Of a DNA stretch of 56,870 bases, positions 11,821 through 55,895 are shown piece by piece. How positions within the stretch are numbered: the first letter of the stretch is position 1; each line of letters starts with the position of its first letter. Under the pieces are notes generated by a model, which was given only the letters and a program-made list of their open reading frames with translations, was not told the origin of the DNA and searched no databases. This DNA is from Chitinophagaceae bacterium (GTDB taxonomy: Bacteria; Bacteroidota; Bacteroidia; Chitinophagales; Chitinophagaceae), in contig JANYEB010000116.1 in NCBI GenBank assembly GCA_025363355.1, positions 1 to 56,870 on the forward strand. The letters are read 5' to 3'. The translations under genes were made by a program, and so were the position numbers.

Positions 11821-14800
11821 TTATTCAACGATTAATTTTTTAGTACTTCTGCTACCATCATTGGTAATAACACTTACCAAATAGAAGCCTTTACTTAAAG
11901 TATTAATGTCTACTTGATTTGTTCCTATACTTAGTGATTGTGTCTTAACTTGTTTACCATACATATCTGTTAAGATAACTTTCCCTCCTGCTTCAACGAA
12001 GTCGATATTGAATGACACTCTGCCTTTAGCTGGATTTGGATACAATGTAAAGTCTAACAGCGGTTTAGTTGCATCACTATTGATATCAACTCCTCTTGAC
12101 GCACAAGTTACACCTGAACCAACCATCACTCGCTTATTTGAACAACCAGCTGAATTAGTAACAGTATAAACAATATTTCCTGTTCCTACACCAATAATTC
12201 TTACAGTACCCCACCAATTATTGGCTGATACTAAACTGTCTGCTATGGTTGCAACTCCAGTATTTGTGAAAGTCCAATGCCCCCCAGTTGGATTACCTAC
12301 TACTGTGAACTTCTTACCTACACAGTATTGACCTGATACTCCTGTACCTGCTATTGGATTACCTGAATTTGATCCATAAGCCATTAAAGGTACTGCTGGT
12401 ATAGCATTCACAGTAATAACTCTTTCCTTGTAACTTGAACATCCGCTATCATTAGAAATAGTATATCTAATCGTTGGCGTGCCTGCATTACTGCCGGATA
12501 ACAAACCTGTATTGCTAATAGCTGCCCAACTACTACCTGATGATATTGCCCAAGTACTTGTTGAACCAATTGGTGCTGTTGTTGATGTCAACTGTAATGT
12601 CGAACCAGCACATACAGATGAAACACCTCCTTGTGCAGTAATTGCTGCTGGAGTAGTTGCTGGTGCTACTTTCAACTGGAAGCTAGCCGTTGATGCACAA
12701 CCTGATGATAATAATGTATAAGAAATATTTGTAGCTCCACGACTCACTGGTAGAATATACGCATATTTCTCACTAGTGTTAGTAGCAATTGGCGTAATTG
12801 ATGCTACGCTGCTATTACTACTACCCCAAACACCACCTGTTGTATAATCTCTTACAAACAAAGTATCTGCAAAACTACAAAGTGATGCTGCTGTAATAGT
12901 AGAACCATTAGCTCTATAGATCGCTCCTACTGCTGGACTTGGTGTAACACTTAATGTTAATGTGTTACTTGTTGCTACTGCTGGTAATGCACAAGGATTA
13001 CTTGAAGTAACTGTACATACTATCACATCGCCTGTAACTAATGTATTAGATGCGAAAGCTAACGTACTAGAATTAGTTCCAACTACAGTACCATTACGCT
13101 TCCATTGATACACTGGTGTACTGCCTGGATTACTAGCAACTGCTGTAAACACTGTATTGCTACCACTACAAATTGTTGTTGAAGTTGTAGAAATACTAAT
13201 TGTTGATGCTGAACCATCAAAGACTGTTAAAGTACCAAATGATGAGTAAAGCTGTGAACAAGTTGCATTCTGTACCAATGCTCTTACATATGTTGTTGCA
13301 CTAATAGCTCCTACTGATGAACCAGGTAATGAAGCACTCGTGCTTGATATATCTACTACTCCTGTTGTAAATGATGAATCAGTAGACTTTTGCCATTTAA
13401 CAACACTACCTTGATAGCCCGTTAATACTACATTATTTGATGGTGCTGTTCCACCACCTGTTACACATACTGTTTGGCTAGATGCAGAACCTCCTACTGT
13501 AACAACTGGGGTTAATACACCATTTGAAGAGTATACTGATGAACAAACTCCACTTTGTACCAATGCTCTAACATAAGTAACAGCTGATATCGTGCCTACC
13601 TCAGCTGCCGTTAATGTTGTTGTCGTATTAATAATATTCGTAACGCCAGTTGAAAAACTTGCATCCGTTGACTTCTCCCATCTTACGACACTACCTAAAC
13701 TGCCTACCAAACTAATATTATTAGATGGTTGGAATCCTAAACATACGATTAAACTTGATGGTGTGCCACCAACTGTGCCAGAATTAACTGTTACCGCTCC
13801 TGTTGTTACTGCACTTGTTGTAGAACAAGTATTAGCATCAGTTGCAGTTACACTATATGTAACGTTGGTACTAGTAGAACCATTATTAATTGGTGTAACA
13901 CTACCTGTAGCTGTACTCAATACAGTTGACGAACCATTACTCCAACTCCAACTTAATGAAGATGTGTAATTCGTGCCTACAATACCACCAAACACAACAT
14001 TCAAGCGATTTGTGCTTAAACTAGCAGCATTAGTTGATGCAGTAGCCGTATAAGCAACTGTGTTACCCGTTGTAGCTGTGTAGTATGTAATTGAATTATT
14101 TGTTAAATCAGCACCACTATGGACTACTTGAACAATAATATTTGAAGTACCATTCCAAACAAATGGTGTTGCGAACGTAATTGTGTTCAAGCCTACAGCG
14201 TGTGTGTAGGTTTGTGAGGGATATACAGTAGTAAATCCTGTTGTAGTATCTGCAAATGCTGTTAATGTTGATAAAGAAGTATTACCAATTTTCACCGTAT
14301 AATTAGCATTTGTAGCACCATCTCCCAAAGTTGTAATATTAAATGCCATTGATGTAATATTACCAGCAGCCAAACCAGCAGCTGTTAATTCAGCGGCTGT
14401 ATACACCGTTTGCATACGGTAAGATGGCCACCTGTTACAAAATGCAGTAGGTTGTGTAGTTGCTCCTGTCAGTGTAGTTGCAGTACCAATAGTTGCAGTA
14501 CCTGTTGTTGATGGGAAACTTGCAGCAGTTAAGGTAACATTACCACCAGAGCAAACAGCTGTTGGTGATGCTGTTGCTGTTGTAATAACAGGGTTTGCAT
14601 TTACAGTAAATATTGCTGTTTTAACATTAGTACAACCAGAAGCACTACTAGCAGATAATGTAATAGTCTCTGATCCTGTTGCAGAGCCACGTTTGTAATA
14701 AATTGTTGTTGGATTACCTGTACCATTATATACTACTGTTCCAGCTGCATCCGTATATAAATTAGTAGTTGGACTCCAAGCATAAACATTGTAATTGCTT

Positions 14801-17800
14801 AAAGTTGAACTTACACTTAATGCTGTAACTCTATTAACGCAAGTACTTGCAGTTGGCGTGCTTACAGATAATGCAGGTGGTGTTCCAACTGCTACAATTA
14901 TCTGCGTGCGACCACTTTCACAACCATTCTTGCTAACACTTGCCCACAATGTATCATTGCCTGATGCATTTGTTGGATAAGTAGCATATACATAGCTTAA
15001 ACTACTACTACTACTTAATGCTGTACCGCCTGTCGCTTTGGTGTACCAATTAATAGTAGCTCCGGTTTCTGATGTTGTTATAGCATAAGTTGGGGTACCA
15101 CATTGGCTACTAGTTGTTGCATTTGTTGGTGCAGCAGCTATATAATTTACAGTTACAGTATTTGTATTACCAGTGCTTACACAAGTTGTAGCGGCATTTG
15201 TAACTGTAACACTATAACCTGCTGTTATAGGTGCACTTGTTGTGTTTGTTGGAATATGTGTAGTAGAAGCTCCATTTGTTATTGAGACACCACTATGAGT
15301 TGTAGTCCAAGCCCAAGTGTATGATGAACTAATATTTGCAGTGTCAGTTACATTCCAGTTATAGAAATAGAACCTAGATCCTCCAATAATGTTATTACCA
15401 TCTATTGTATTACCAGTAATGCTAAATCCACTAGCATTGGTGTAAGGATAGTTGTAAGTTAATTGACCGCGATTAATTGCTAATGATGAATAATATAATT
15501 GCCATGCAGTTGAGCCTGCTGGTATATTAAAATTAACAGCTAATGTTTTGGCAACTGTAGTGCTAATATCTCCAGCAACAATTGTAAAGCTCCTACTGTC
15601 AATTACAGTACTACTAGAATTTAATAATTGAATAGTTAATGTGCCTGCAGTTGATGGATAAACATCAACAGTATTAATTCTTGAAGCGTTTGGAGAATTA
15701 AAATACATACCATAACCACTTAAAGAACCAAAACCTGTTTCACTTATTTCTCCAAGATTAGATGTAATTGCACCAAATGATGTACCATTTAAATTAACTG
15801 CTGAACCACTACAAACTGTTGTAGGGGTTGCAGTTAAAGTTGTTATAGTTGGGTTAGGATTAACATTCATTGTTACTGAAGTAGTATTAATACAAGCTCC
15901 AGCACCAGAATTACTTACACTAAGTGTAATAACTTCTGCACTGTTTGAAGAACTACGTTTATAGTAAACAGTAGTCGGGTTACCAGTTCCAGTATATGCA
16001 ACTGTTGCAGCTGCATCTGTATATAAATTGGTTATTGGTGTCCAGCTAAAGTTGCTGTAATTACCAACTGTTCCTCCTGTTACACTTAATGTTTCAATTC
16101 TATTTAAGCAGGTAGTAACAGTACCAGTTTTAGTTAATGCTATTGAAGCAGGACTAGATACAGTTACTGTAATAGCAGTTCTTGCACCCTCACAACCACC
16201 AGATGTAACGCTAACATATAAAGTATTTACACCTACTGTGTATCCAGTATAAACATAACTTAAACTACTACCACTGCTAATTGATGAACCGCCACTTGCT
16301 GATGTGTACCAGTTAATAGTTGGTGAACTAATACTAGTAGAAACAGTATAAGTTGGAAGACCGCATTGATTAGCCACAGTTCCATTATCTGTAGGTGCTG
16401 GTGGTATCGGATTAACTGTTATTGTTGCAACTGAAGTCTTAGTTGTAGAGCAACTTGGTGCACTAGCAAGAGTAGCAGTAACACTATAAGTAACATTAAC
16501 AGGCGATGAAGTAACATTCGTTGGGTTGATCATACCTGTGTTAGCACTTAGTACGTTGCTTGTACCATTACTCCAAGTCCAATTATATCCATTACCATTA
16601 TTATTTAGGACTTGAGCACCAAATGTAAACTTAGGACGACTAGTGCCAGTTGAAGTACCAGTTGTTTGTGCTAACATTTGTGCAGGAGTTTGATTATCTA
16701 CTTGTTTATAGACACTACAAGTAAATCCAGGATTATCAACATTCATTGAAGATGCTGTAGCAGTTGAAGCAGAAGGAACTCGGCTCCAAGAAATAGATAC
16801 AACAATGTTTGATGTGCCATCCCAATTGAAATTAGCATTTGAACCACTACCTGTGCCAAATGTCAAAGTGTTTGGATTACTAGCATCCGGCGTAAATCCA
16901 TTGTCAGTTCCTTCTGTTCCAAAGTAAACTTGCGTCAAATTAGCATTAGGAATAAAGGTTGTTGTAGCAGCAGCTTGTGCCGTTAAACCTAAATGAACAT
17001 AAAATCCTTGGTATTGTTGACCAGATGTAGTTGTTTCAAAAGTTAGAGAGGTTAAATTACCAGCTGAAATACCAGCAGCTATTAATTCTGATGCCTTAAT
17101 AATATATTGTGTTTTAGTTCCACCCCAAAATCCTGGGAAAAAACTTGCAGCTGTACTGGTAGATGCTACAGCACCTGCACCAATAGTTGCTGTACCTGTT
17201 GTAACATTATTTGAACCTGCATATAAACTTACAGCATTACCACTACAAATAGTCGTAGGTGTGATTAGAGTAGAATCTATTGTAGGATTAGCAGCTACAT
17301 TAAACATTGCTATTGTATTGTTAGAACAAGTTGTTCCACTGTTAAAATAACTAGCAGCCAATCTAATGGTGTCTGCAGCACTCGCACTGCTACGTTTGTA
17401 ATATAAAGTTGTTGGATTGCCAGTGCCGTTATAAGCCACAGTTGCAACAGCATCTGTATATAAATTAGTAGTTGGTGTCCAATTATAAGTAGTGTAAGTT
17501 CCAGCACCACTATTTACACTGATAGCATTAATGCTACCAGCACAAACATTTGTTAAACTTGCTGGGGTAATGCTCAATGCAACTGGTGTGTTAACAATTA
17601 CATTTAATTGAGTTCTGCCACTTTCACAACCAGTAATAGGGTCTGTTACACTAACCCAAAGGCTATTAGTGGCACCTCCACCAGTAAAGCTATTTTGAAC
17701 ATAAAAACTAGAACCTGTATTGCTACTTGTGGTAGTAACCAAATTTCCAGCACTTGCGGCATCATACCATTTATAAGTAACTGTTCCAGAAATTCCAGTA

Positions 17801-20800
17801 CTAACACTAAATGTAGGTGTACCACATTGTGATGCTGCACTTGTATTAGCAGGACTAGTTGGTGTTGGATTTACTGTAATAGCTGTACCATTTAAAGAAC
17901 CATAACAACCTGTTGCACTATTTGTTGCTGTAGCAGTATACGTTACACTTGTTACGGTAGAACCAGCATTTGTAGCTATATGGGTAGTGCTTGCACCACT
18001 TACGACACTTGTACCTAAAACTCCAGTTGTACTCCAAGTCCAATTGTAAGATGAAGTTACATCAACAACAGCTTGTCCTCCGAATTTCATATTAGGTCTT
18101 TGACTGTAGCTAAAAGTAATACTTGGGGCTGCACTACAAACTGTTGTTAAATCAGCTCTGTAAACTAACGTTGATTGATAGCTAGTGGTTGATTGATTAA
18201 ACACGGCATTAGTAGTAAATCCTGTGTTAGCAAAACAAGTTTGAATAATAATATTACTTGTCCCATCCCAATTAAATGGTGTAGAAAAAGTAATGGTATT
18301 GGCAGCATAGCCTGCAGTGCTAGATGGTGAATAAGAGGCAACAGCATAAACTGTTGTAAAGTCTAACGTTTCAAAACTAGTTAATGAATTTAAACTAGTT
18401 GCTTTAATAGCTACATTGAATCCGCTTAAAGCAGTAGTTACAGGTGTAACAACATCAAATGCAACTGAAGTAATATTTCCAGCTCTTAAACCAGCAGCAG
18501 TTAAATCTGTAGCAGTAATTAACATTTGGTTTTTAGCACCTTGATAATAGTTACCAAATGGTGCAGGATAGCCTGTGCTAGTGGTTGATGATGTAGCATT
18601 ATTTACTACTCCAGTACCAACAGTTGCAGTGCCTATACCCACACCTAACGCTGTTCCACTTAAATTAACCGTAGCACCATTACAAACTGTAGCAGGTGTG
18701 GCTACAGCTGTACTTACAACAGGGTTTGCACCAACATTAAATGTTGCCACAGAAGTAGCTGTACAAGCACCTACAACAGCTGTTAATGTAATGGCTTCAC
18801 TTGCAACAACATTACTGCGTTTGTAGTAAACTGTTGTTAGATTTCCTGTACCATTATATGCAACAGTTGCAGCTGCATCAGTATATAAATTAGTATTTGG
18901 TGTCCATACATAACTTGTGAAACTTGCATTACCAGTTGTAATATCTAAAGTTTCTATTTTATTCACACAAGTTTGAACGGCACCAGTTTTATTAACTACT
19001 AAGGTTGGAGGATTAGTAACAGTTACATCACACTGTGTTCTACCACTTTCACAACCACCGGTTGCTGTTACAGAAACATACAAGCTATTAACACCACCTA
19101 CATAGCTGTTGAATATATAAGAACTAGAACCGGTACTCCTTGTAGTTGTTGTAACTAGATTACCACTATTAGCTGCATCATACCATTTGTAAGTAACGTT
19201 ACCACTTAACCCTGTTGATACAGAGAAAGTAGGTGTACCACATTGATTGGCGTTTGATGTGTTAGTAGGAGAAACTGCTAATGAATTAACAGTAACAGCA
19301 CTTGCAGCCAAACTGCTTGAGCAGAAAGGTGCACTTGCACTTGTACCAGTTACTGTATAAATAACAGTTGTTGCAGTTGAACCTGCAGGTATATTTGTTG
19401 GATTAACAATACCAGTAGAAGCACTTGGCCCACCATTGTTCCAGCTCCAGTTTAATGTACCTGCACCTGTTGTTTGAACTTGACCTCCTAATACTATCTT
19501 AGGTCTTAGAGTACCAACAGTACCAGTAGTAAGAGCCTGATTGGCTGATACTGTTACATTATCTGTTGCTGCTTTAGTGAAACAATTAAATGAAGGGCTT
19601 GGAGTATCATATTTTACCTCAGCAGCAGTTCCTCCACCATTATTATTACTCCAGCTAATTTCTACTATTACGTTATCTGTGCCATTCCAAGATACAGTTG
19701 AAGAAGAACCTGAGCCTGTACCAAACGAATAAGTATTAATACCCACCGTTGGCGTAACAGTGCCGGCAATACCAGCGTAGTAAACTTGTGTTAAGCCAGT
19801 TGCAAAAGTTGTAGTTAATGCTGATGCTGAAGTTGTACCAACTTGAATCATAAAGCCTGTGTATGCTGTGCCAGCTGAAGCCACATCAAAACCAACAGAA
19901 CTAAGATTACCAGCAGAAATACCAGCACCGGATAATTCAGATGCCTTTATCATATATTGAACCTTTAAACCGCCAAAATAATGTGAATAAGGACTGGCAT
20001 AGTTAACACTAGAAGTACCACTACTCGCAGAAGTTGAAGCTCCAGCTCCAACTGGTGCAGTACCAGAACCTATAACATTTGTCAATCCTGTTAATGTAAC
20101 ATTTCCACCACTACAAACTGAAGCAGGCAATGCTGTAGCACTTGCGATTGTTGGATTTGCATTCACTGTAAATATTGCAGAAGCAGTATTAGTACAGCCT
20201 TCATTTCCAGAACCACTTGTAGAGTTAACAGCTGTCAAAGTAATCGTTTCACTAGCTGTTGCTGAACTACGTTTGTAATAAATAGTTGTTGGATTTCCTG
20301 TGCCATTGTATGCAACTGTTGCTGCTGCATTTGTATATAAATTGGTTGTTGGTGACCAAGTATAAGAATCATAATCACTTAAAGTTGATGTAACAGATAA
20401 AGTTTCAACCCTACCAACACAGCTTGCAACAGTTGATTGAGATAAAGATAATGTTGCAGGAATATTTGCGAAAACATCAAATTGAGTTCTTGTTGCACTT
20501 ACACAACCTGAAGTGTTAGTTACTGCAACATAAACAGTATTGATGATTCCTTGAACTGGGGCAAGCATTTTATAAATACCAGTAGTATTACTATCAAGCT
20601 TAGTGCCACCAGTTGGAACACTATAGAAGCTATAATAAGAACCAACAACTGCACCAGTTGCAGTATAAGTAATAACACCGCATTGGGCTGTTGGAGTATT
20701 ATCACTGTTTGGTGCTGCAGGTAATGCAATTCCTGTAATTTGAACAGATGGAGATGCTGGACTTGTAGATGCACTTGTTGTACAACCGCTTGCAGTTAAA

Positions 20801-23800
20801 TTAACAGTATAAGTATTAGCTCCTAGTGCAGGTGTAACACTTGGAGTTGCCGATGTACTTGTAAAACTATTTCCATCGCTCCAACTATAACCTGCGATTG
20901 TTGCAGCCACTATACCTCCAAAAATAAACTTAGGTCTGCTTGTGCTTAATACCGGAGTATTTCCTCCACTTGGTGTACCTGTTGTTCCACATACGGTGGC
21001 TGGAGTTTGACTATCAACCTGCCACCCATAACTGCTATTGAAGCCAACTGCATCAGTTTGAACTGTACAAGAGGTAGAAGTTGTTAAAGCTGTACTCCAG
21101 CAAATTGAAACTATAACATCATTTGTGCCGTTCCAATTAAATGGTGAAGTGAATGTAATTGTATTATCAGAACCAATGGTTGGTGTAAATGATGTACCAG
21201 GAGCATAAACATCACTAGTGCTAATAAAGCTATTAGACATCACACCGTTTGTACCTGAGGCATGTGCCATACTGATGGCAAAACCAGGATATGCTTGTCC
21301 GCCTGATGTAGGTCTAAATGTTAAAGATGTTATATTGCCAGCAAACAAACCTGCTGCATTCAATTCAGATTTTCTTACTAGGTATTGCACCTTAGCACCA
21401 CCCCAGCTACCTGGGAAAATAGTAGTTCCAAGAGAACTAGAGGTTGAAGCACCAGTTCCCACAGTTCCTAAACCAGCTTTTTTCAAAGTGGCACTCAAAG
21501 TAGTAGAACCACCTGTACAAACTGAAGTTGAAGCAGCATTAGCACTAGTTGTAGCTCCATTTAATGGTAAGTAAATGAAGCTTGTACCGTTTGTAGTGGC
21601 AGTTAAACCAATATTGTTGGTGCTAGTAACACTCCAAGTTACAGTTGTACCTGCTGTTCCAGAAGGAATATCGTAACTCCAAGTATTACCACTTGTATTT
21701 GTCATTGCAACGGGGCCTGTAGCACTACCATTGTTATAGGTAATAGTAACACCAGTTATAGTTGTTCCAGTTGGGGTAGTTGCATCAACAGTGACTGTTC
21801 TTGACGAACCCGTAGTACAAACATTTGCAGGAGTTGATAAATTGCTATTTGATGGAGCTGGCGACTGTCCACTAAATTCATCAGCACCAATATCTGGTGT
21901 AGATGTGTTTCTAGTATCCCCATCATAATCTTGTGTAATAGCTATTGGGCTAGATACAACAGTTCCTCCACTTTCTACCAATGTCGTAATACCACTTACA
22001 AGATGTAAATAAGTTGTAGCAGAACCAGTTAAACTTTGGAAGAAATTTCCAGCAGTTTCATAAGGTGTTGCACTTCCTTCTTGCCAAGTAACCTCACCGC
22101 CAATTGAAGATGCTTCCCTTGGAGCTACAGCAATTGCACTTATTGTAGCACCTTGAAAACTTGCAAGCGTTTGATAGCTATTGGTTGCATCAGAATATAT
22201 TAGTTTGCTAGCACTAGGAGTACCAGCATATAACAAATTTTTATTTGAGATAGTAGCATAATTGTTCAATGCTACACCACTTCTTCTCAAAGCAACTGTT
22301 AAACCTGTACCTACAGGAACGATTCTATTGATAATAATATTATTTCTTAAATCCAATACAGCAGTTGTAGCAGTTACACTAGCTGTATGAAATATACCAC
22401 TACCGCCAAAATTAGCTCCAGTTGAAGTACCGTTTAAAAATATAGTATTGAAATGGATGTAATTAGTTGAAGTGCTACTTGAAGTAATACTAACACCTCT
22501 TATACCATCAGGGTTCGCACTAGTTGTTGCTGCTAAATTGCCTATGTAATTATTATATACATAAGCAGCAGTTGCAACAGAACTAATTCTAATACCATTT
22601 ACTACACCAGTTGTTCCAGTAGAATTTGACACAATACCATATATTTTATTTTTAAATACATAAGGAGTTGTACCACCACTAACTAAAATACCATCTGTTG
22701 TAGGACTAGCAGAACTTGTTGCTGCACCAACTGTAATATTTTTTACTATGTTGTTGTAAATACTATCATTAGTACCAACACCAACTACAATACCAGAAAC
22801 AACAGGCGAACCTGTTACTACTCCATTAAAGTTTAACGCACTAAAGGTATTATTATAGATATTGTAAGGTCCACTACCTGAAGTACCTGCATTAATTCCA
22901 ATCATAGAAGTTGGAGATGTAGTACTAGAAGTTAAAGAAATTGTATTTAAAGAGATACTTCCATATAAAGGCAAACCATTGCCAGGACCACTAGACGGCA
23001 CAAAATATCCTGCCCCAGCACTTGTATTATTTGGGTTTAATCCAATAAGAGTTGTTGCAGCATTACTTATTATAATGCTATTACCGGCAACTTTAGATCC
23101 CGATGAGTAACCCCAAGCTATGCCCGTAGTTGCACCAGTATTTGTACCAGAAATATTAATTGTATTGTTACAAATGCTCTTAACACCTGAAGTGCTCGGT
23201 CCACCTAACTCGCTAATACCAGTTGCACTTGTAGAGCCAGCAAGGCTACTAAAGGTGATAGTGTTACTAGAAACAGTATCTGCAACATTACTAGGACTAC
23301 CAGTTTGTGTTGTAAAACTTATAGCACCAGTTGCAGCAACACGATCTATAATTGCTGAATTACTTTTAATGTTGTATAAAACTGTCACCGTTGCTTCTGG
23401 TTTAACACAAATCAAAGTACCTGTAGAACGAATTGTAGAACCTGTAGTGTTGATAGTATTTCCAACAACATTTGCAGTTGCGTGAGTTGCACTTACGTCT
23501 ACACAAGTGATTGTACTAGTATATGTGTTTGTACCTGCCCCAGCTACAGATTCTTTGATAGTAATAGTATTTCCATTACCCACACTTCCAATATTTAATG
23601 TTGTTGTTGCTGTAGTTGATTGAATTCCTATTTGAGTTCCAGATAAAGTAGAAGTAAACGTTGCTGAAGCAGTGCTTGAACGATTTATTAATATAGAGTT
23701 ACTCAAAATTGACATTGTGGGCGTTCCAGTTGTTCCATTTGGCGTGGTAATACCTGTGAATGCAGATGAATTTGTAGTGGTCGCAGTTACATTTGCAGTT

Positions 23801-25017
23801 TGGTTTACTGTAATATTGTTTGAACTAACACTAGAAGATGCAGCAGCATAGGCAGCTTTAATACCAATCATTAAACCACTTTGAGCAATGTTTGCTGAAT
23901 TTTGATTAATAGTAACCGTATTATTATCACCAGTAATTGTTCCAGTGCTAATACCATATCCAAAATCAATACCAGTTAAAGTACCTGAAGTATTAGTCGA
24001 TGATGTCAAATTTACTGTATTGTTACTGATATTATTTGTGTAGGTAACTCCAGCAGGTGTAGTACCAGCAGAAAGAACGATACCATTGGTAGCAGTTGCT
24101 GCCAAAGAAATTGTACCACTAGTTACAGAATTGTATCGAATAGTAGAACCAACAACATTGCGAACAATAATACCACCATGAACTGTAGTTGACATATTCG
24201 TGTAGGAAGTTGTAATTGCAGCATTACCTACATAATTAATAGTGTTTCCAGCACTCGATTGACCAATTATCCAACCAGTTTCACTGAAAGTAGCTGTTGA
24301 TACTGGACTTACAACAGAAATACCAAATGCAACCGATGATATGGTATTACCAATAACTTTATTATTCGAATTTTCTCCCCCAGCAACAGATGCTTGTGCA
24401 GTCACTGTAGATGCATTTGCAGAACTAAAAGTAGAGGTAGAGAATATACCAAAGGATTGTGTGTAAGTTGCACTAAGTGAAATAGTGTTGTTACTTATAG
24501 TATTGTTCTTAGCACCATTAATTGTAGTTGCAGCGTAAATAGCAATACCAAACTCAGTCATTGTATTTGATGCAGGAGTTATTACAGTATTACTGCTATT
24601 CTCTTGCATTTGAAAACCTGTAATGGTAATGTAGTCACCACCAACTATTTTAAAAATAGCATCATTCACAAAATTAGCAGTTTGCAAACCAGCAGTAATA
24701 ATACTACCACTACCTGCACCAGTAATTGTAAGTGTATTTGAAATTGACCCAGTTGCTGTAATAGAATAACCACTGGTAGGAGCTGTTTGAGGAAAACCAG
24801 ACTGTAAAGTGATTGTTGTAGGTTGTGTTAAAGTACCCACACCATTAACAGCAGTAATTGCAGCTGCTAAAGTTGCATAAGGACTGCCACCTGCTCCATC
24901 ACCAGTTACCACTACTTGTGCATTAGCAGATTGAAGACTAGAGAAAGCAAGTACCATCGATAAGATGAATGCTGATACAATTTTTCCTACCCCATTTTTT
25001 TGTGTAGTTGTTTTCAT
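11821..25017 (-). CDS. Giant T9SS-secreted adhesin B (4,398 aa, complete)
   Basis: The start is set at ATG 25015-25017 (MKTTTQKNGVGKIVSAF..., signal peptide ending NAQ). It aligns with the adhesin A start and has the same AACAAAC-rich leader. An upstream ATG at 25140 would add 41 residues before the signal peptide. Residues to about 1,045 are beta-helix-like repeats ending DIGADEFSG, then an Ig-like domain. Scaffold units follow, alternating with five jelly-roll-like modules (AAGLxAGNITS...RPKFxFGG) near 21450-20915, 20075-19490, 18640-18070, 17215-16600 and 14525-13985. One different insert lies at 15780-15310. The C-terminus is a clear T9SS type A sorting domain (LYPNPAKGRVSF...KKLIVE, about 11824-12054). 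Expected to be exported through Sec, then T9SS, and anchored on the surface. An adhesive or gliding role is inferred. Confidence 0.95.
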   Translation of the reverse strand: MKTTTQKNGVGKIVSAFILSMVLAFSSLQSANAQVVVTGDGAGGSPYATLAAAITAVNGVGTLTQPTTITLQSGFPQTAPTSGYSITATGSISNTLTITGAGSGSIITAGLQTANFVNDAIFKIVGGDYITITGFQMQENSSNTVITPASNTMTEFGIAIYAATTINGAKNNTISNNTISLSATYTQSFGIFSTSTFSSANASTVTAQASVAGGENSNNKVIGNTISSVAFGISVVSPVSTATFSETGWIIGQSSAGNTINYVGNAAITTSYTNMSTTVHGGIIVRNVVGSTIRYNSVTSGTISLAATATNGIVLSAGTTPAGVTYTNNISNNTVNLTSSTNTSGTLTGIDFGYGISTGTITGDNNTVTINQNSANIAQSGLMIGIKAAYAAASSSVSSNNITVNQTANVTATTTNSSAFTGITTPNGTTGTPTMSILSNSILINRSSTASATFTSTLSGTQIGIQSTTATTTLNIGSVGNGNTITIKESVAGAGTNTYTSTITCVDVSATHATANVVGNTINTTGSTIRSTGTLICVKPEATVTVLYNIKSNSAIIDRVAATGAISFTTQTGSPSNVADTVSSNTITFSSLAGSTSATGISELGGPSTSGVKSICNNTINISGTNTGATTGIAWGYSSGSKVAGNSIIISNAATTLIGLNPNNTSAGAGYFVPSSGPGNGLPLYGSISLNTISLTSSTTSPTSMIGINAGTSGSGPYNIYNNTFSALNFNGVVTGSPVVSGIVVGVGTNDSIYNNIVKNITVGAATSSASPTTDGILVSGGTTPYVFKNKIYGIVSNSTGTTGVVNGIRISSVATAAYVYNNYIGNLAATTSANPDGIRGVSITSSSTSTNYIHFNTIFLNGTSTGANFGGSGIFHTASVTATTAVLDLRNNIIINRIVPVGTGLTVALRRSGVALNNYATISNKNLLYAGTPSASKLIYSDATNSYQTLASFQGATISAIAVAPREASSIGGEVTWQEGSATPYETAGNFFQSLTGSATTYLHLVSGITTLVESGGTVVSSPIAITQDYDGDTRNTSTPDIGADEFSGQSPAPSNSNLSTPANVCTTGSSRTVTVDATTPTGTTITGVTITYNNGSATGPVAMTNTSGNTWSYDIPSGTAGTTVTWSVTSTNNIGLTATTNGTSFIYLPLNGATTSANAASTSVCTGGSTTLSATLKKAGLGTVGTGASTSSSLGTTIFPGSWGGAKVQYLVRKSELNAAGLFAGNITSLTFRPTSGGQAYPGFAISMAHASGTNGVMSNSFISTSDVYAPGTSFTPTIGSDNTITFTSPFNWNGTNDVIVSICWSTALTTSTSCTVQTDAVGFNSSYGWQVDSQTPATVCGTTGTPSGGNTPVLSTSRPKFIFGGIVAATIAGYSWSDGNSFTSTSATPSVTPALGANTYTVNLTASGCTTSASTSPASPSVQITGIALPAAPNSDNTPTAQCGVITYTATGAVVGSYYSFYSVPTGGTKLDSNTTGIYKMLAPVQGIINTVYVAVTNTSGCVSATRTQFDVFANIPATLSLSQSTVASCVGRVETLSVTSTLSDYDSYTWSPTTNLYTNAAATVAYNGTGNPTTIYYKRSSATASETITLTAVNSTSGSGNEGCTNTASAIFTVNANPTIASATALPASVCSGGNVTLTGLTNVIGSGTAPVGAGASTSASSGTSSVNYASPYSHYFGGLKVQYMIKASELSGAGISAGNLSSVGFDVASAGTAYTGFMIQVGTTSASALTTTFATGLTQVYYAGIAGTVTPTVGINTYSFGTGSGSSSTVSWNGTDNVIVEISWSNNNGGGTAAEVKYDTPSPSFNCFTKAATDNVTVSANQALTTGTVGTLRPKIVLGGQVQTTGAGTLNWSWNNGGPSASTGIVNPTNIPAGSTATTVIYTVTGTSASAPFCSSSLAASAVTVNSLAVSPTNTSNANQCGTPTFSVSTGLSGNVTYKWYDAANSGNLVTTTTRSTGSSSYIFNSYVGGVNSLYVSVTATGGCESGRTQCDVTVTNPPTLVVNKTGAVQTCVNKIETLDITTGNASFTSYVWTPNTNLYTDAAATVAYNGTGNLTTVYYKRSNVVASEAITLTAVVGACTATSVATFNVGANPVVSTAVATPATVCNGATVNLSGTALGVGIGTATVGTGVVNNATSSTTSTGYPAPFGNYYQGAKNQMLITATDLTAAGLRAGNITSVAFDVVTPVTTALSGFNVAIKATSLNSLTSFETLDFTTVYAVASYSPSSTAGYAANTITFSTPFNWDGTSNIIIQTCFANTGFTTNAVFNQSTTSYQSTLVYRADLTTVCSAAPSITFSYSQRPNMKFGGQAVVDVTSSYNWTWSTTGVLGTSVVSGASTTHIATNAGSTVTSVTYTATATNSATGCYGSLNGTAITVNPTPTSPANTSAASQCGTPTFSVSTGISGTVTYKWYDAASAGNLVTTTSSNTGSSFYVQNSFTGGGATNSLWVSVTDPITGCESGRTQLNVIVNTPVALSITPASLTNVCAGSINAISVNSGAGTYTTYNWTPTTNLYTDAVATVAYNGTGNPTTLYYKRSSASAADTIRLAASYFNSGTTCSNNTIAMFNVAANPTIDSTLITPTTICSGNAVSLYAGSNNVTTGTATIGAGAVASTSTAASFFPGFWGGTKTQYIIKASELIAAGISAGNLTSLTFETTTSGQQYQGFYVHLGLTAQAAATTTFIPNANLTQVYFGTEGTDNGFTPDASNPNTLTFGTGSGSNANFNWDGTSNIVVSISWSRVPSASTATASSMNVDNPGFTCSVYKQVDNQTPAQMLAQTTGTSTGTSRPKFTFGAQVLNNNGNGYNWTWSNGTSNVLSANTGMINPTNVTSSPVNVTYSVTATLASAPSCSTTKTSVATITVNPIPPAPTDNGTVANQCGLPTYTVSTSISSPTINWYTSASGGSSISSGSSLSYVYTGYTVGVNTLYVSVTSGGCEGARTAITVTVSSPASIALTKTGTVTTCLNRIETLSVTGGTVGNYSNFSWTPITNLYTDAAATVAYTGTGNPTTVYYKRSSSNSAEVITLSVSNSGAGACINTTSVTMNVNPNPTITTLTATPTTVCSGSAVNLNGTSFGAITSNLGEISETGFGSLSGYGMYFNSPNASRINTVDVYPSTAGTLTIQLLNSSSTVIDSRSFTIVAGDISTTVAKTLAVNFNIPAGSTAWQLYYSSLAINRGQLTYNYPYTNASGFSITGNTIDGNNIIGGSRFYFYNWNVTDTANISSSYTWAWTTTHSGVSITNGASTTHIPTNTTSAPITAGYSVTVTNAATTCVSTGNTNTVTVNYIAAAPTNATTSSQCGTPTYAITTSETGATINWYTKATGGTALSSSSSLSYVYATYPTNASGNDTLWASVSKNGCESGRTQIIVAVGTPPALSVSTPTASTCVNRVTALSVSSTLSNYNVYAWSPTTNLYTDAAGTVVYNGTGNPTTIYYKRGSATGSETITLSASSASGCTNVKTAIFTVNANPVITTATASPTAVCSGGNVTLTAASFPSTTGTATIGTATTLTGATTQPTAFCNRWPSYRMQTVYTAAELTAAGLAAGNITSMAFNITTLGDGATNANYTVKIGNTSLSTLTAFADTTTGFTTVYPSQTYTHAVGLNTITFATPFVWNGTSNIIVQVVHSGADLTNNSITYYTATTGNTVAYTATASTNAASLSTNRLNVVFGGIVGTNYTSSLSWSWSNGSSTVLSTATGSVTPINNGSTSTNVTYSVTATDANTCSTTSAVTTGAVTVNSGTVGGTPSSLIVCLGFQPSNNISLVGSLGSVVRWEKSTDASFSTGVTNIINTTTTLTAAEVGTISAVTYVRALVQSGVCSSVYSSNGVLTPVVTVGGSASSQTVCVTGGGTAPSNNVVLTGYQGSVVKWQKSTDSSFTTGVVDISSTSASLPGSSVGAISATTYVRALVQNATCSQLYSSFGTLTVFDGSASTISISTTSTTICSGSNTVFTAVASNPGSTPVYQWKRNGTVVGTNSSTLAFASNTLVTGDVIVCTVTSSNPCALPAVATSNTLTLSVTPSPAVGAIYRANGSTITAASLCSFADTLFVRDYTTGGVWGSSNSSVASITPIATNTSEKYAYILPVSRGATNISYTLLSSGCASTASFQLKVAPATTPAAITAQGGVSSVCAGSTLQLTSTTAPIGSTSTWAISSGSSWAAISNTGLLSGSNAGTPTIRYTISNDSGCSSYKERVITVNAIPAVPLMAYGSNSGNPIAGTGVSGQYCVGKKFTVVGNPTGGHWTFTNTGVATIADSLVSANNWWGTVRIIGVGTGNIVYTVTNSAGCSNKRVMVGSGVTCASRGVDINSDATKPLLDFTLYPNPAKGRVSFNIDFVEAGGKVILTDMYGKQVKTQSLSIGTNQVDINTLSKGFYLVSVITNDGSRSTKKLIVE
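13919..13991. repeat. Second copy of the 73-bp exact repeat
   Basis: Identical to window bases 1-73. It lies inside adhesin B where a jelly-roll-like module joins a PKD-like strand, in the same codon phase as in adhesin A, so exchange here would keep the frame. Confidence 0.9.
14692..20340 (-). repeat. Five-copy scaffold repeat within adhesin B
   Basis: The NLYTDAAATVAYNGTGN/YYKRSS-coding DNA recurs near 14692-14760, 15957-16025, 17392-17462, 18815-18888 and 20272-20340, at spacings of about 1.27, 1.44, 1.42 and 1.46 kb. Each period is a scaffold unit plus one insert module. Nucleotide similarity to the adhesin A copies is high. Confidence 0.85.
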
Positions 25018-25903
25018 ATTTGTTTGTTTATTATTGTGTGTGTTGGTTTCAAAATATTTCTTCTCGAACAATTGAGAAAATGAATTAAACTGTTTACGCT
25101 TGGAATGCTCGTAAAATTGTAGAAGTTGATCTAGCAACATATTTTTTTATTTTTTCTAAAGCAGTTCCCTACTCTCGATTGTAATTTAAAAATTTAGATA
25201 AAAATGACCAAAAGGCTTAATATAATTAAGCTTTTCAGCCGTTTTGTATTTCTAAAAAAATTGGGTTTTAAACTGCGTAATCGTTGTTTGAGGAGAATTT
25301 TCAGAAGCAATACTAATGCTTATTAGTTAATATTTTCCTAACATCTATCTACTTTTTTTTAAGTGGTGTCTAAATTTAGCGATTTTCAAAATAAAGGCTT
25401 TTTTTTTAGAAATAATCTAATAAAATATTTTAATCGATTTACTAACTTCCGAAAAAAAATATTTTTAAATTGATATTCCTCCACAATGCAATCGATTTCT
25501 ATTTACCAGTTTTGCTATAAAATGACAAAAATTTTAATTTTGCATAAAACAACAAAAAGTTAAATCTGTTAGATTTTATAAAATAGGAAACTAATTTATT
25601 AAAAATCAATCATTATGCTAATTGAACGCGTAAAAAAAGTATAAAAATTGGGAATATAGTAATTTATACGTACTATGTAAGTGTACAGATTCTGTTCAAA
25701 GCACAATATATAATTGGCTTCCCCCCTTTAAAAGTAAGAATCAACAAAATTTATGTTCTAGTTCAATCTAATCTTTTTGAACAATTCTATCTTTCGAGTA
25801 CAGAAATGAAATTCGTTTCGAGTACAATAACTAATATGAAAAAATAATTTTTCAACAATTTTACACTTGATTTCAAATATTCTTAAAAAAAACTAATTTA
25901 ATT
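25018..25903. other. Long AT-rich spacer between adhesin B and rpsL
   Basis: About 0.9 kb with no credible gene on either strand. The left part (to about 25335) is the adhesin B leader. The remainder is very AT-rich with homopolymer runs, and I see no tRNA, IS end or hairpin terminator in it. Confidence 0.7.
25210..25335 (-). promoter_or_regulatory. Conserved leader of adhesin B with hairpin
   Basis: It carries AGCTTTTCAGC (25229-25239), TTCAGAAGCAATA (25300-25312) and GTTAATATTT (25326-25335), in the same order and almost the same spacing as upstream of adhesin A. A 7-bp hairpin (GCTTAAT 25215-25221, ATTAAGC 25225-25231) followed by CTTTT on the minus strand could act as an attenuator in the 5'-UTR. 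Confidence 0.5.
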
Positions 25904-51743: not shown

Positions 51744-52817
51744 TTATTCATCCACAGCATTTGCAATCAATCTTGCACTCATTCTTCTTAAAGGATTTAC
51801 TCTTGCTTCGGCAAAACCGTTTCGCTGACGAACAATATCAATTGCTTTAAAGGTTGCTTCTAAAAACGATTCGTGATTAGCAATTCCTTTACCTGCAATG
51901 TCAAATGCAGTTCCATGGTCTGGGCTTGTGCGAATAACTGGTAAACCAGCAGTATAATTTACACCTTCTCCAATAGCTAAAGACTTAAATGGAATCAATC
52001 CTTGATCGTGATACATTGCTAAAACTGCATCAAAATTTTCGTGTTGTCCACGTGCAAAAAAAGCATCAGAACTATATGGGCCAAATACCAGCATTGTTTG
52101 CTTTGCATCCTTAATGGCAGGTTTAATAATTGTTTCTTCTTCTTTACCAATAAGGCTTTCATCGCCTGCGTGTGGATTTAATCCTAATACAGCAATACGT
52201 GGTTTATCAATACCAAAATCTTCTTTTAAACAACCATTTAAGATTCTTAATTTACTAATGATAGCCTCCTTAGTAATGGCATTTGCTACTTCTAAAACTG
52301 GGATATGTTCTGTTACCAAACCTACTTTAATATTTTCGGCAACCATCAACATTACAACATCATTAGCAGCAAAATATTCTTTAAAATAAGGCGTGTGACC
52401 ACTGTATTTAAAGGTTTCTGACTGTATATTTTTTTTGTGAATTGGAGCTGTAACCAAAGCGTGAATATCTCCTGCTGCTAAAGCCTCAGTAGCTGCTTCT
52501 AATGAAAGTAAAGCGTATTTACCACCTGTTTCATTTAATGTGCCTGGCGTAATAGCAACTTCTTCTTCCCAACAATTAAAAATATTAACTTGTTTATTGC
52601 TTAGCTTAGAAAAATCTTTGATGATGTTATAGCTAATATTAATATCTGGAAAGCCTTTTCTATAAAAATTAAGGGCTTTGCTATTTGCAAAAACAACTGG
52701 AGTACAAATATTCAGTATCTCACTATTGCTTAAAGATTTAATGATAAGCTCAATACCAATTCCATTTAAATCGCCACAAGTAAAACCAATTACTGGCTTT
52801 TGAAAATCACTGCTCAT
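51744..52817 (-). CDS. pdxA: 4-hydroxythreonine-4-phosphate dehydrogenase
   Basis: A 357-aa enzyme that oxidises 4-phosphohydroxy-threonine in the DXP-dependent pathway to pyridoxal phosphate. Motifs are IGFTCGDLNGIGIELI, VTAPIHKKNI, SGHTPYFKEYF, LGLNPHAGDESLIGKEE, AMYHDQGLIPFKSLA and SPDHGTAFDIAGKG, including the metal-binding histidines. Length is normal. It begins 6 nt after the symporter stop, so it is the last gene of the small-peptide/symporter operon. Confidence 0.96.
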   Translation of the reverse strand: MSSDFQKPVIGFTCGDLNGIGIELIIKSLSNSEILNICTPVVFANSKALNFYRKGFPDINISYNIIKDFSKLSNKQVNIFNCWEEEVAITPGTLNETGGKYALLSLEAATEALAAGDIHALVTAPIHKKNIQSETFKYSGHTPYFKEYFAANDVVMLMVAENIKVGLVTEHIPVLEVANAITKEAIISKLRILNGCLKEDFGIDKPRIAVLGLNPHAGDESLIGKEEETIIKPAIKDAKQTMLVFGPYSSDAFFARGQHENFDAVLAMYHDQGLIPFKSLAIGEGVNYTAGLPVIRTSPDHGTAFDIAGKGIANHESFLEATFKAIDIVRQRNGFAEARVNPLRRMSARLIANAVDE

Positions 52818-52823
52818 TACTTA

Positions 52824-54536
52824 CTATTTAGGTTGGCGAAGATAGGCGTTTTTAAAGGCTAGTTGAAAAATCAGACTAAACAGTACTACCAACAGAGCAC
52901 CAATAACATTGAGCCATAAAAAACCTAAGCCAATAATATTCATTTTATCTAAAGTAAAAAGGGCAATTACAATTAATTCTGTAATGATCGCTGCTATAAA
53001 AACTGCATTTGCTTTTACTTGTTTACAATAAAACGCCACTAAGAAAATACCAAGGATAACACCATAGAATAAAGAGCCTAAAACATTTACAGCTTCTATT
53101 AAACTGCCCATTCCTGTGGCTAATTCTGCTACAACAATGCAAAAAATACCCCAAACAAATGTGTAGAATTTAGATAAATTGTATTCTCTTTTTTCTGTCG
53201 CTCTTTGTTTGGTGAAGCGAAGGTGGAAATCAATCATAGTGCAGCCTGCCAAAGAGTTTAACGATGCTGCAATGCTGCCCCAAGCACTTAAAAAAATGAT
53301 AGCAATTAATAATCCAACCAACCCTTTTGGTAAATTATCTACAACAAATCTTAAGAAAATATAGTTGGTATCTTTTCCATCTGGTGAAGCTTTTGACGCT
53401 TTGGCGTAATGTGATGCAAGTGACCGTAAAGAATCTTCTTGCAATTTTAAATTTTGAATTTTTAGTTTAGAATCAGCATTGTTTGTTTTTAAGTAATCAA
53501 TACTAATATCTTGCTTTTTTGTTTGCACCAAATAATAAGCATTCTGCACGTTTTGCATTGAATCTTTATAGGCAGATTGATATACTTTTATTTCGGCAGC
53601 TTTATCAAAATAAATGGGCATTGGTTTAAATTGATAGAACACAAATAGCAATGCACCCAATAACAAAATAAAAAATTGCATTGGCACTTTTACCAAGCCA
53701 TTCATTAATAAACCAAGCTTACTTTCTTTATCGTCTTTAGCTGTAAGGTAGCGTCCTACTTGGCTTTGATCAGTTCCAAAATAACTCAATGCCAAAAAAA
53801 ATCCACCAATAATACCACTTACAATATTGTACTTATCCTTCCAATCAAAACCGTTTTTTGTAAAGCCAGTTGTAATAACATTTAGCTTTCCATTTGCCCC
53901 ACTAATTTTTAAAGCATCTATAAATCCAACATTGTTTGGTAATAGATGAATGATATAATAACCAGCAGCAAACATTCCACAAAAAATAACAATCAATTGC
54001 AATTTTTGAGTATAAGCTACAGCCTTTGCTCCACCACTAACTGTGTATATAATTAGTAAGCCTCCCATTACGATATTGGTATAAAAAATATTCCAACCAA
54101 GTAAGGATGATAAAATGATAGAAGGTGCGTAAATGCTGATTCCTGTGGCAAGACCTCGTGATAATAAAAACAAAAAAGAAGTAAATGTTCTAACTCTTAC
54201 ATCAAATCTTTCTTCTAAAAATTGATAGGCAGTAAATACTTTTAGTTTATGAAATAATGGAACAAATGTGATGCACAAAACCACCATTGCAATGGGCAAT
54301 CCAAAGTAGTATTGCACAAAACGCATTCCATCGGTAAATGCTTGCCCTGGTGCAGAAAGAAATGTTATGGCACTGGCTTGAGTGCCCATTATACTTAACA
54401 AAACCAAGTACCAAGGCATACTTCTATTGTTCAAAAAATAGCCATCTAAATTTTTTGAAGTACGACTTTTATATAAGCCATAACCAATAATGGTGAGTAA
54501 TGTTATGGAAAGAATTATCCAGTCTAAGCTGCTCAT
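52824..54536 (-). CDS. Sodium:solute symporter family transporter
   Basis: A 570-aa SSS-family transporter with about 13 membrane segments. It opens LDWIILSITLLTIIGYGLYKS and has the family region GTQASAITFLSAPGQAF, YTVSGGAKAVAYTQKLQ, FGTDQSQVGRYL and FLSAWGSIAASLNSLAG. A long hydrophilic loop (YFDKAAEIKVYQSAY...ASPDGKDTNYI) is inserted before the PKGLVGLLIAIIF helix; part of it comes from repeat-like DNA. The substrate is unknown. Its ATG overlaps the stop of a 39-aa membrane peptide (ATGA), so it is translationally coupled. pdxA follows after 6 nt. Confidence 0.93.
   Translation of the reverse strand: MSSLDWIILSITLLTIIGYGLYKSRTSKNLDGYFLNNRSMPWYLVLLSIMGTQASAITFLSAPGQAFTDGMRFVQYYFGLPIAMVVLCITFVPLFHKLKVFTAYQFLEERFDVRVRTFTSFLFLLSRGLATGISIYAPSIILSSLLGWNIFYTNIVMGGLLIIYTVSGGAKAVAYTQKLQLIVIFCGMFAAGYYIIHLLPNNVGFIDALKISGANGKLNVITTGFTKNGFDWKDKYNIVSGIIGGFFLALSYFGTDQSQVGRYLTAKDDKESKLGLLMNGLVKVPMQFFILLLGALLFVFYQFKPMPIYFDKAAEIKVYQSAYKDSMQNVQNAYYLVQTKKQDISIDYLKTNNADSKLKIQNLKLQEDSLRSLASHYAKASKASPDGKDTNYIFLRFVVDNLPKGLVGLLIAIIFLSAWGSIAASLNSLAGCTMIDFHLRFTKQRATEKREYNLSKFYTFVWGIFCIVVAELATGMGSLIEAVNVLGSLFYGVILGIFLVAFYCKQVKANAVFIAAIITELIVIALFTLDKMNIIGLGFLWLNVIGALLVVLFSLIFQLAFKNAYLRQPK
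53438..53472. repeat. AAATTCAAAATTTAAAAT-type repeat inside the symporter gene
   Basis: On the minus strand the stretch reads as the common intergenic word AAAATTCAAAATTTAAAA. It is translated as SKLKIQNLKLQ in the extra hydrophilic loop of the symporter. An in-frame insertion of intergenic repeat DNA is inferred. Confidence 0.55.
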
Positions 54537-54652
54537 AAAAAGTAGTTAGTGAATAAAATGAACAGTATAATGTTTAAAGCCAAAATCGCTACAATGAAGA
54601 TGTACCAATGCTTCCAGCTTTTAAAAAGTGGTATATTATTTTTGTTTTTCAT
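54533..54652 (-). CDS. 39-aa single-pass membrane peptide coupled to the symporter
   Basis: A short gene reading MKNKNNIPLFKSWKHWY, then one hydrophobic helix IFIVAILALNIILFILF and a NYFL tail. The KSWKHWY pattern before the helix puts basic and aromatic residues at the membrane interface. Its stop TGA overlaps the symporter start (ATGA). Its own start lies within the end of an upstream 53-aa gene. I know no named family for it. Position and coupling suggest a small subunit or assembly factor of the transporter, like the small companions known for some SSS permeases, but this is inference. Confidence 0.7.
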   Translation of the reverse strand: MKNKNNIPLFKSWKHWYIFIVAILALNIILFILFTNYFL

Positions 54653-54797
54653 TGATTTTATTGCTTAATAAGCTACCACCTAGTAGCCCTAAAATTAAAC
54701 CCATTACTAAACCAATCTTTACCATTTTAAATTTTTCTCCAATGAAAAGACCAACCAGCACAAGGGCTACAACGGTTATTAATTTTCTTTGATTCAT
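54636..54797 (-). CDS. 53-aa two-helix membrane peptide, first gene of the symporter operon
   Basis: The frame from ATG 54795-54797 reads MNQRKLITVVALVLVGLFIG, then EKFKMVKIG and a second hydrophobic, glycine-rich helix LVMGLILGLLGGSLLS, ending NKINEKQK. Both helices are about 16-18 residues. The stop overlaps the start region of the 39-aa gene by 17 nt, which gives a chain of overlapping genes leading into the symporter. Family unknown. It may be a small membrane partner of the transporter; a leader peptide controlling the operon is the alternative. Confidence 0.6.
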   Translation of the reverse strand: MNQRKLITVVALVLVGLFIGEKFKMVKIGLVMGLILGLLGGSLLSNKINEKQK

Positions 54798-54960: not shown

Positions 54961-55254
54961 TCATAAATTTATTGTTGATGTTTGTATAATCTCGATGTAA
55001 TCTTCCTTTATGTTATATGAACAGTTAGATGCTTTTTCTTTAATTGACTGTTCTGCAATAAATGTTAATATTCGGCTTCTATCAATTAAAGGTCTAGAAG
55101 TTTTGATTTCCCATTCCTCAATTGTTGGAATGAAGATGAATACCAAAACACTAGTTCCTCCAAATTCATAGGATACCTTTATTTCTCCTTTTTCATCTTT
55201 ATAAATGATAGAGCCACAACGCCCTTTATCTATAAATTCTAATTTTTGTTCCAT
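54961..55254 (-). CDS. Hypothetical 97-aa protein
   Basis: Not recognised. It starts best at MEQKLEFIDKGRCGSIIY (55254); a start at 55287 would add 11 Lys/Ser-rich residues. It contains alternating beta-like segments (GSIIYKDEKGEIKVSYEFGG, VLVFIFIP, EWEIKTSRPLID) and a helix ILTFIAEQSIKEKA, a small alpha/beta protein without signal or membrane helix. It follows a barstar-like gene on the same strand by about 45 nt, so it may be a second small immunity-type protein. Confidence 0.65.
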   Translation of the reverse strand: MEQKLEFIDKGRCGSIIYKDEKGEIKVSYEFGGTSVLVFIFIPTIEEWEIKTSRPLIDRSRILTFIAEQSIKEKASNCSYNIKEDYIEIIQTSTINL

Positions 55255-55299
55255 CTTTATTTTTTTCTTTCCAAAACTACTCTCCACAACATATTTCTA

Positions 55300-55593
55300 C
55301 TAATCTTTTTCAAATTCAATATGGTGTCTATGCTCCTTTATCTTTTCAACTAAAATATCAGTAAGCTCTTTGCCTAATTTTTTTTCACTTCTTTCAAAGT
55401 TCTTCCAAACTATTCTAATGTTTTCTTCATACTCAAAAGCCCCAAAACCACCCCATAATATATCATTAAAAGCATTTAAGTTATGTCCTGTTTCAAAATC
55501 TAAATCCTTTGTTAAAACTTTATCAATTTCTTTATAAAATGATTCTCTCGTAGAAAAGTTATTACCATTTATTATGAATACTTTATTACTCAT
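55300..55593 (-). CDS. Barstar-like (ribonuclease inhibitor) protein
   Basis: A 97-aa acidic protein with the barstar layout: first strand KVFIINGNNFSTRESFYKEI, central GHNLNAFNDILWGGFG, and IRIVWKNFERSEKKLG followed by an EKIKEHRHHIEFEKD tail. Barstar blocks barnase and related RNase toxins by filling the active site; homologues are immunity proteins of polymorphic toxins. No RNase or toxin gene is visible nearby, so it would be an orphan immunity gene. A weak TAGATTTG -7-like element lies at 55640-55647 on its strand. Confidence 0.85.
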   Translation of the reverse strand: MSNKVFIINGNNFSTRESFYKEIDKVLTKDLDFETGHNLNAFNDILWGGFGAFEYEENIRIVWKNFERSEKKLGKELTDILVEKIKEHRHHIEFEKD

Positions 55594-55752: not shown

Positions 55753-55895
55753 ACCCTAATTCGTTTGAATTTTACCCTACTTATCGACAGTTTTACCCTA
55801 CTTATCGATAATTTTACCCTATTCTGCCACAATTTTACCCTATTTATCAAGGGTTTTACCCTACTTATCTTCAGTTTTACCCTACTTATTGATTC
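55749..55895. repeat. Seven-copy 21-bp tandem repeat with core TTTTACCCTA
   Basis: Units start at 55749, 55770, 55791, 55812, 55833, 55854 and 55875, exactly 21 bp apart. Each begins TTTTACCCTA; the other 11 bases vary, often ending CTTATCGACAG-like. It overlaps the 3' end of the neighbouring minus-strand gene and reaches the terminator. One frame on each strand is open through all units (plus: FTLLIDS-like heptads; minus: SRVKLSI-like heptads). Confidence 0.95.

Follow-up and report, generated by a model that had tools for sequence, protein, structure and literature searches.

A conserved single-helix membrane protein encoded with one Bacteroidota sodium:solute symporter: a probable unrecognised transporter subunit

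Two very small genes precede the gene of a sodium:solute symporter (SSS) in a Chitinophagaceae bacterium, and they raise the question of whether such short reading frames encode real proteins and, if they do, whether these proteins belong to the transporter. We investigated this question in a window of 56,870 nucleotides, which is one whole contig of a genome that has Chitinophagaceae MAGs as its nearest named relatives, and in orthologous loci of other Bacteroidota.

Layout of the locus

The symporter gene, of the SSS/SLC5 family, occupies positions 52824..54536 of the minus strand and encodes 570 amino acids with 13 predicted membrane helices (PF00474, TIGR00813). Upstream of it on the same strand lie pep2 (54533..54652), which starts with ATG and encodes a single-helix membrane protein of 39 amino acids that is our candidate for an SSS accessory subunit, and pep1 (54636..54797), which also starts with ATG and encodes a glycine-zipper membrane protein of 53 amino acids. 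In both products a hydrophobic stretch has charged flanks. The original prediction described two tiny frames of these lengths, positions and character together with their overlaps, and all of this agrees with what we find in the window: pep1 and pep2 overlap by 17 nt, and the stop codon of pep2 and the start codon of the SSS gene overlap as ATGA (54533..54536).

The two overlaps fare differently at other loci. The ATGA geometry, in which pep2 stops exactly at SSS position +4, recurs in 112 of the 134 distinct loci that bear pep2, and it likely reflects translational coupling of pep2 and the SSS gene. The 17-nt overlap does not generalize: pep1 and pep2 overlap in 22 of 93 loci, and the length varies, with spacings of -17, -11, -14 and +2 nt in four congeners.

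Downstream of the SSS gene is a pdxA-like gene (51744..52817, minus strand, PF04166), which is present at the same place in the window's three congeners (loci L071-L073) and absent from the other listed loci; it is probably not part of the system. A promoter scan scored no better than shuffles, no RNA family in Rfam matched near the locus, and no annotated copy of the locus was found in plasmid records. Upstream of pep1, at 54961-55593 on the minus strand, the window has a gene for a protein of the barstar family (PF01337, E=2.7e-9) next to a family-less ORF of 108 aa, and this pair sits where the congeners carry a gene with a PIG-L domain. Further along, a 21-bp tandem repeat of 5.7 copies (TTTTACCCTACTTATCGACAG, 55770-55889) lies at the end of an ORF of 313 aa that has no Pfam match. 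A single open frame of 4439 aa spans 11821-25140 on the minus strand.

Conservation of pep1 and pep2

We gathered SSS orthologues from 99 genomes and from named GTDB contigs, and we searched the DNA upstream of them with profiles built from the peptides. Once duplicates were removed, 139 distinct loci were left, 134 of which have a pep2 homologue upstream of the orthologous SSS gene. The peptide is mostly 36-41 aa long, and it is retained at loci where the ATGA overlap is lost. Across a diverse set of 26 sequences, W13 and Y17 never vary and P8 and T35 hardly do. The pooled dN/dS of pep2 is 0.16 (30 independent sequence pairs). Homologues of pep1 occur at 94 of the 139 loci, with a pooled dN/dS of 0.09 (31 independent sequence pairs). 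Both of the properties on which the original prediction hinged, namely conservation upstream of orthologous symporters and synonymous bias, are thus found for both peptides. We conclude that pep1 and pep2 are real genes under purifying selection.

The linkage of pep2 to the transporter was also approached without reference to the locus, by a blind profile search of 296 Bacteroidota genomes. This search typically gave one match per genome, and 54 genomes have a match at E<=1e-5; in 52 of these the match is directly upstream of this same SSS orthologue and on the same strand, where one of the 52 (G037) is counted from the search of upstream DNA rather than from the neighbourhood check of blind hits. 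The two exceptions are a genome in which an intact pep2 precedes an SSS gene whose N-terminal part is broken (G123, locus L236, G123:C19), and one with a pep2 match and no SSS gene nearby (G365). Matches weaker than E<=1e-5 are a mixture of diverged true copies and chance. In three genomes of the genus of G123 (L271, L273, L274) the SSS gene is present and no pep2 is visible.

In the reverse direction, the SSS orthologue is found at E<=1e-60 in 81 of 198 genomes, in a single copy each, and a pep2 profile match can be assigned to the locus in 58 of these 81. Of the remaining 23 genomes, 16 carry, immediately before the SSS gene, a diverged ORF that encodes a single helix and a motif of the W...Y type. 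In the other seven pep2 is absent or doubtful (five with none visible, two doubtful), and we count these seven against the idea of a subunit. The window genome encodes two other SSS paralogues, neither of which has a pep2-type ORF upstream; one of them comes after a stretch that by eye reads like the final part of a xylose isomerase gene. The tie of pep2 to one SSS orthologue across Bacteroidota is therefore near-exclusive, and pep2 resembles the small accessory subunits of SSS transporters in that its gene accompanies one SSS gene specifically (52 of 54 genomes; absent from both paralogues).

The companion gene pep1 has a narrower distribution. It is present at 94 of 119 distinct Chitinophagaceae loci and lies upstream of pep2 in all 99 of the 99 loci that carry both (before removal of duplicates). 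Among the 198 Bacteroidota genomes searched it was found in 6, all of them Chitinophagaceae, and nowhere outside that family; this restriction counts against a subunit system that includes it. It has invariant glycines with glycine-zipper spacing. In an AlphaFold model pep1 is one long helix (pTM 0.39), and it may be either a hairpin or a single helix. A relationship to AtpI (ATPase_gene1, PF09527) was considered and rejected, as the score of 15.4 bits is below the gathering cut-off of 26.6 and 5 of 20 members match weakly. We regard pep1 as a lineage-specific second factor, whose membership in the system is less certain than that of pep2 and which could be a separate helper.

The transporter and known small partners

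Membership of the transporter in the SSS family is clear from its matches to PF00474 (E=3.4e-33) and TIGR00813, both above cut-off, and from its fold. We built an AlphaFold model from 44 sequences (pLDDT 82.5, pTM 0.80), in which, by our own reading, there are 13 membrane helices and a helical insert at about residues 312-380. The closest solved structure is SiaT (PDB 5nv9/5nva), which matches over the whole length (Z 41.5, rmsd 2.2 Å over 464 residues; phmmer E 3e-43; about 24-28% identity). SiaT is thus the nearest solved relative of the transporter; PDB chains include no small-subunit relative, and the long insert belongs to the SSS of the window. With SGLT2, the model aligns only up to SGLT2 residue 549, before TM13. 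An analysis of covariation between pep2 and SSS by mutual information (Neff 54) gave top pairs that are scattered and concentrated in the variable SSS insert, and we treat these as noise. The linkage to a gene with a PIG-L domain, the amino-sugar genes found at the locus in one genus (see below) and the nearest structure, SiaT, together suggest that the substrate is amino-sugar-like. In 40 of the 80 named loci L071-L150, the SSS gene is followed on its own strand by a gene that by eye is alpha-amylase-like and that may bear on the substrate as well.

Small membrane proteins coupled to SSS genes are a kind already known, the examples being yjcH-actP and yhdT-panF of Escherichia coli. In both cases the gene of the small protein overlaps the SSS gene start, by 4 nt for yjcH and by 11 nt for yhdT. 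However, YjcH is longer than pep2, with 104 aa and, by eye, two hydrophobic stretches, YhdT has 80 aa, and neither has detectable homology to pep2. The family of YjcH, DUF485 (PF04341), has no match in 26 pep2 members (hhalign probability against YjcH 0.9%), and it is above cut-off in 1 of 61 Bacteroidota genomes searched. For DUF997, the family of YhdT, there is likewise no match in 26 members, and the hhalign probability against E. coli YhdT alone is 0.4%. DUF4212 (PF13937), the small subunit of VC_2705-type symporters, is likewise encoded next to an SSS gene at one Bacteroidota locus (L249), and its first helix opens with a YW.. pattern that by eye is similar to pep2. Unlike pep2, it is about 85-90 aa long and has two helices and an FWFAQQGS motif; no Pfam or NCBIfam match connects the two, and hhalign against 12 Bacteroidota members gives 0.6%. 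DUF4212 is found in other Bacteroidota genomes but not in that of the window. DUF3311 is a further family found beside SSS genes, and it had no pep2 match in the Pfam scan.

More generally, neither pep1 nor pep2 has a match in Pfam or NCBIfam, and pep2 has no relatives among PDB chains (best E 0.19). We count the absence of sequence kinship to known small SSS proteins against a role as a subunit. Since pep2 lacks this kinship and has one helix rather than two, any role like that of a small SSS subunit would lie outside the known small-subunit families. We found no description of either peptide in open-access papers, and the terms small subunit, YjcH, YhdT and accessory are all absent from a 2021 review of prokaryotic SSS transporters (PMC7918813).

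Partners with one helix have been described elsewhere. MAP17 (PDZK1IP1) is a single-helix partner of the SLC5 transporters SGLT1 and SGLT2 (PMC9616851), and in human SGLT2 it binds peripherally at TM13 (PMC10803289). This is like the proposed role of pep2, but MAP17 is eukaryotic and, as far as tested, unrelated, and the model of the Bacteroidota SSS is without a counterpart of TM13. No MAP17 chain was matched when the pep2 profile was compared with PDB sequences, although single-helix peptides carry little signal. Small single-helix proteins are also known to modulate transporters by binding or by protection from FtsH, and AcrZ, MgtS and MgtR are membrane proteins of fewer than 60 residues that act on a transporter (PMC10710835). 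Their targets, however, belong to other transporter families. None of the three is known to be co-translated with its target through a stop/start overlap.

Candidate roles of the two peptides

Rearranged loci provide natural experiments on these genes. In most Chitinophagaceae a PIG-L-domain gene (PF02585, 800-900 aa) precedes pep1 (71 of 80 named loci). In the window genome this gene is on another contig with unrelated flanking genes, pep1 and pep2 remained with the SSS gene, and there is no pep1 beside the relocated PIG-L gene. The second case comes from one distant genus: in three of its genomes (G122, G148, G192; loci L279, L280, L281), pep2 and the SSS gene are separated by an opposite-strand cluster of about 15 kb. 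This cluster contains PIG-L and ROK kinase genes, genes of the glucosamine-6-phosphate-isomerase type and some that by eye are SusC-like and MFS genes. A single event probably underlies the arrangement in all three genomes, which we therefore treat as one observation rather than three. In all three pep2 is intact, with a pN/pS of 0.16-0.18 in the two more diverged pairs (for one pair, Fisher p=0.002 with rounded counts).

We give almost no credence to the idea that the two frames are open by chance, or that they represent a small membrane toxin located here by accident. It is true that short hydrophobic ORFs are common, and one pep2 member has a weak match to Ibs_toxin (E=0.011). However, conservation and dN/dS exclude chance ORFs, and the phylum-wide, usually single-copy link to one transporter, the purifying selection and the lack of an Rfam match nearby all argue against this idea. 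It might also be proposed that pep2 is a translated leader with a job only in cis, where ribosomes re-initiate at the SSS start through the ATGA and the peptide itself is irrelevant. Although the frequency of the overlap fits such a leader, selection on pep2 acts at the level of residues, and the peptide persists where the overlap is lost. In addition, a peptide needed only for coupling would be expected to be lost after separation from the SSS gene, so the intact and constrained copies some 15 kb away favour a function of the protein, and we consider a leader very unlikely.

A further alternative is that pep2 is a conditional regulator of the SSS or protects it from proteolysis, like MgtS/MgtR or AcrZ, and is not a constitutive, stoichiometric subunit. 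Precedents of single-helix modulators that act by binding or by protection from FtsH make this a reading to consider, but the tight co-translation with the SSS would better suit constitutive stoichiometry, and we regard such a regulator as unlikely. As to pep1, its usual position between the PIG-L gene and pep2 is what one might see if it served the neighbouring secreted PIG-L deacetylase rather than the transporter. The window genome, where pep1 has stayed with the SSS gene and none accompanies the moved PIG-L gene, speaks against this, and we think it rather unlikely.

The explanation that we favour, and that we consider likely when taken as a whole, is that pep2 is a single-TM accessory subunit dedicated to one SSS orthologue of the Bacteroidota, coupled to it by the ATGA, packed on the transporter and needed for its assembly, stability or activity, with pep1 as an extra glycine-zipper helper in Chitinophagaceae. 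The case for a subunit draws on the linkage (134 of 139 loci, 52 of 54 genomes, paralogues without pep2), on selection, on the separated copies, on the peptides staying when the PIG-L gene left, and on the precedent of yjcH, yhdT and MAP17. The original prediction had proposed an undescribed small-subunit system. Given the phylum-wide link of pep2 to one SSS and the lack of a curated family for either peptide, this is the best reading, and pep2 is probably an unrecognised SSS transporter subunit. The proposal holds less well for pep1, which is confined to one family and is possibly a separate helper, and the kind of system is one already known.

If this explanation is correct, pep2 would be made in step with the SSS through stop/start translational coupling. 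Its N-terminal stretch has a mean net charge of +1.6, which suggests that the helix runs from an inside N-terminus to an outside C-terminus. By analogy with MAP17, this helix might pack on the outside of the 13-helix SSS, and the transporter might depend on it for assembly, stability or activity in the way that SGLT2 depends on MAP17. A similar requirement may hold for YjcH with ActP and YhdT with PanF. In Chitinophagaceae pep1 would act as an additional helper. One could go further and suppose that the peripheral in-to-out helix TM13, which is part of the same chain in SGLT-type relatives, is here provided in trans by pep2. This idea comes from our count of 13 helices in the SSS and from the end of the SGLT2 alignment at residue 549; we think it decidedly unlikely. 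Were it true, the helices of the transport machine would be split between two chains, and the 39-aa protein would act as a MAP17-like scaffold.

The pep2 family is an apparently uncatalogued family of proteins of fewer than 50 residues. It is conserved phylum-wide, is linked to one orthologous transporter and joins the few known small partners of SSS proteins. If pep2 is required, then attempts to express these transporters or to study their structure in its absence would fail or give misleading results. In that case, the role of a MAP17-like helix in SLC5 transporters would also become testable in a simple bacterial pair.
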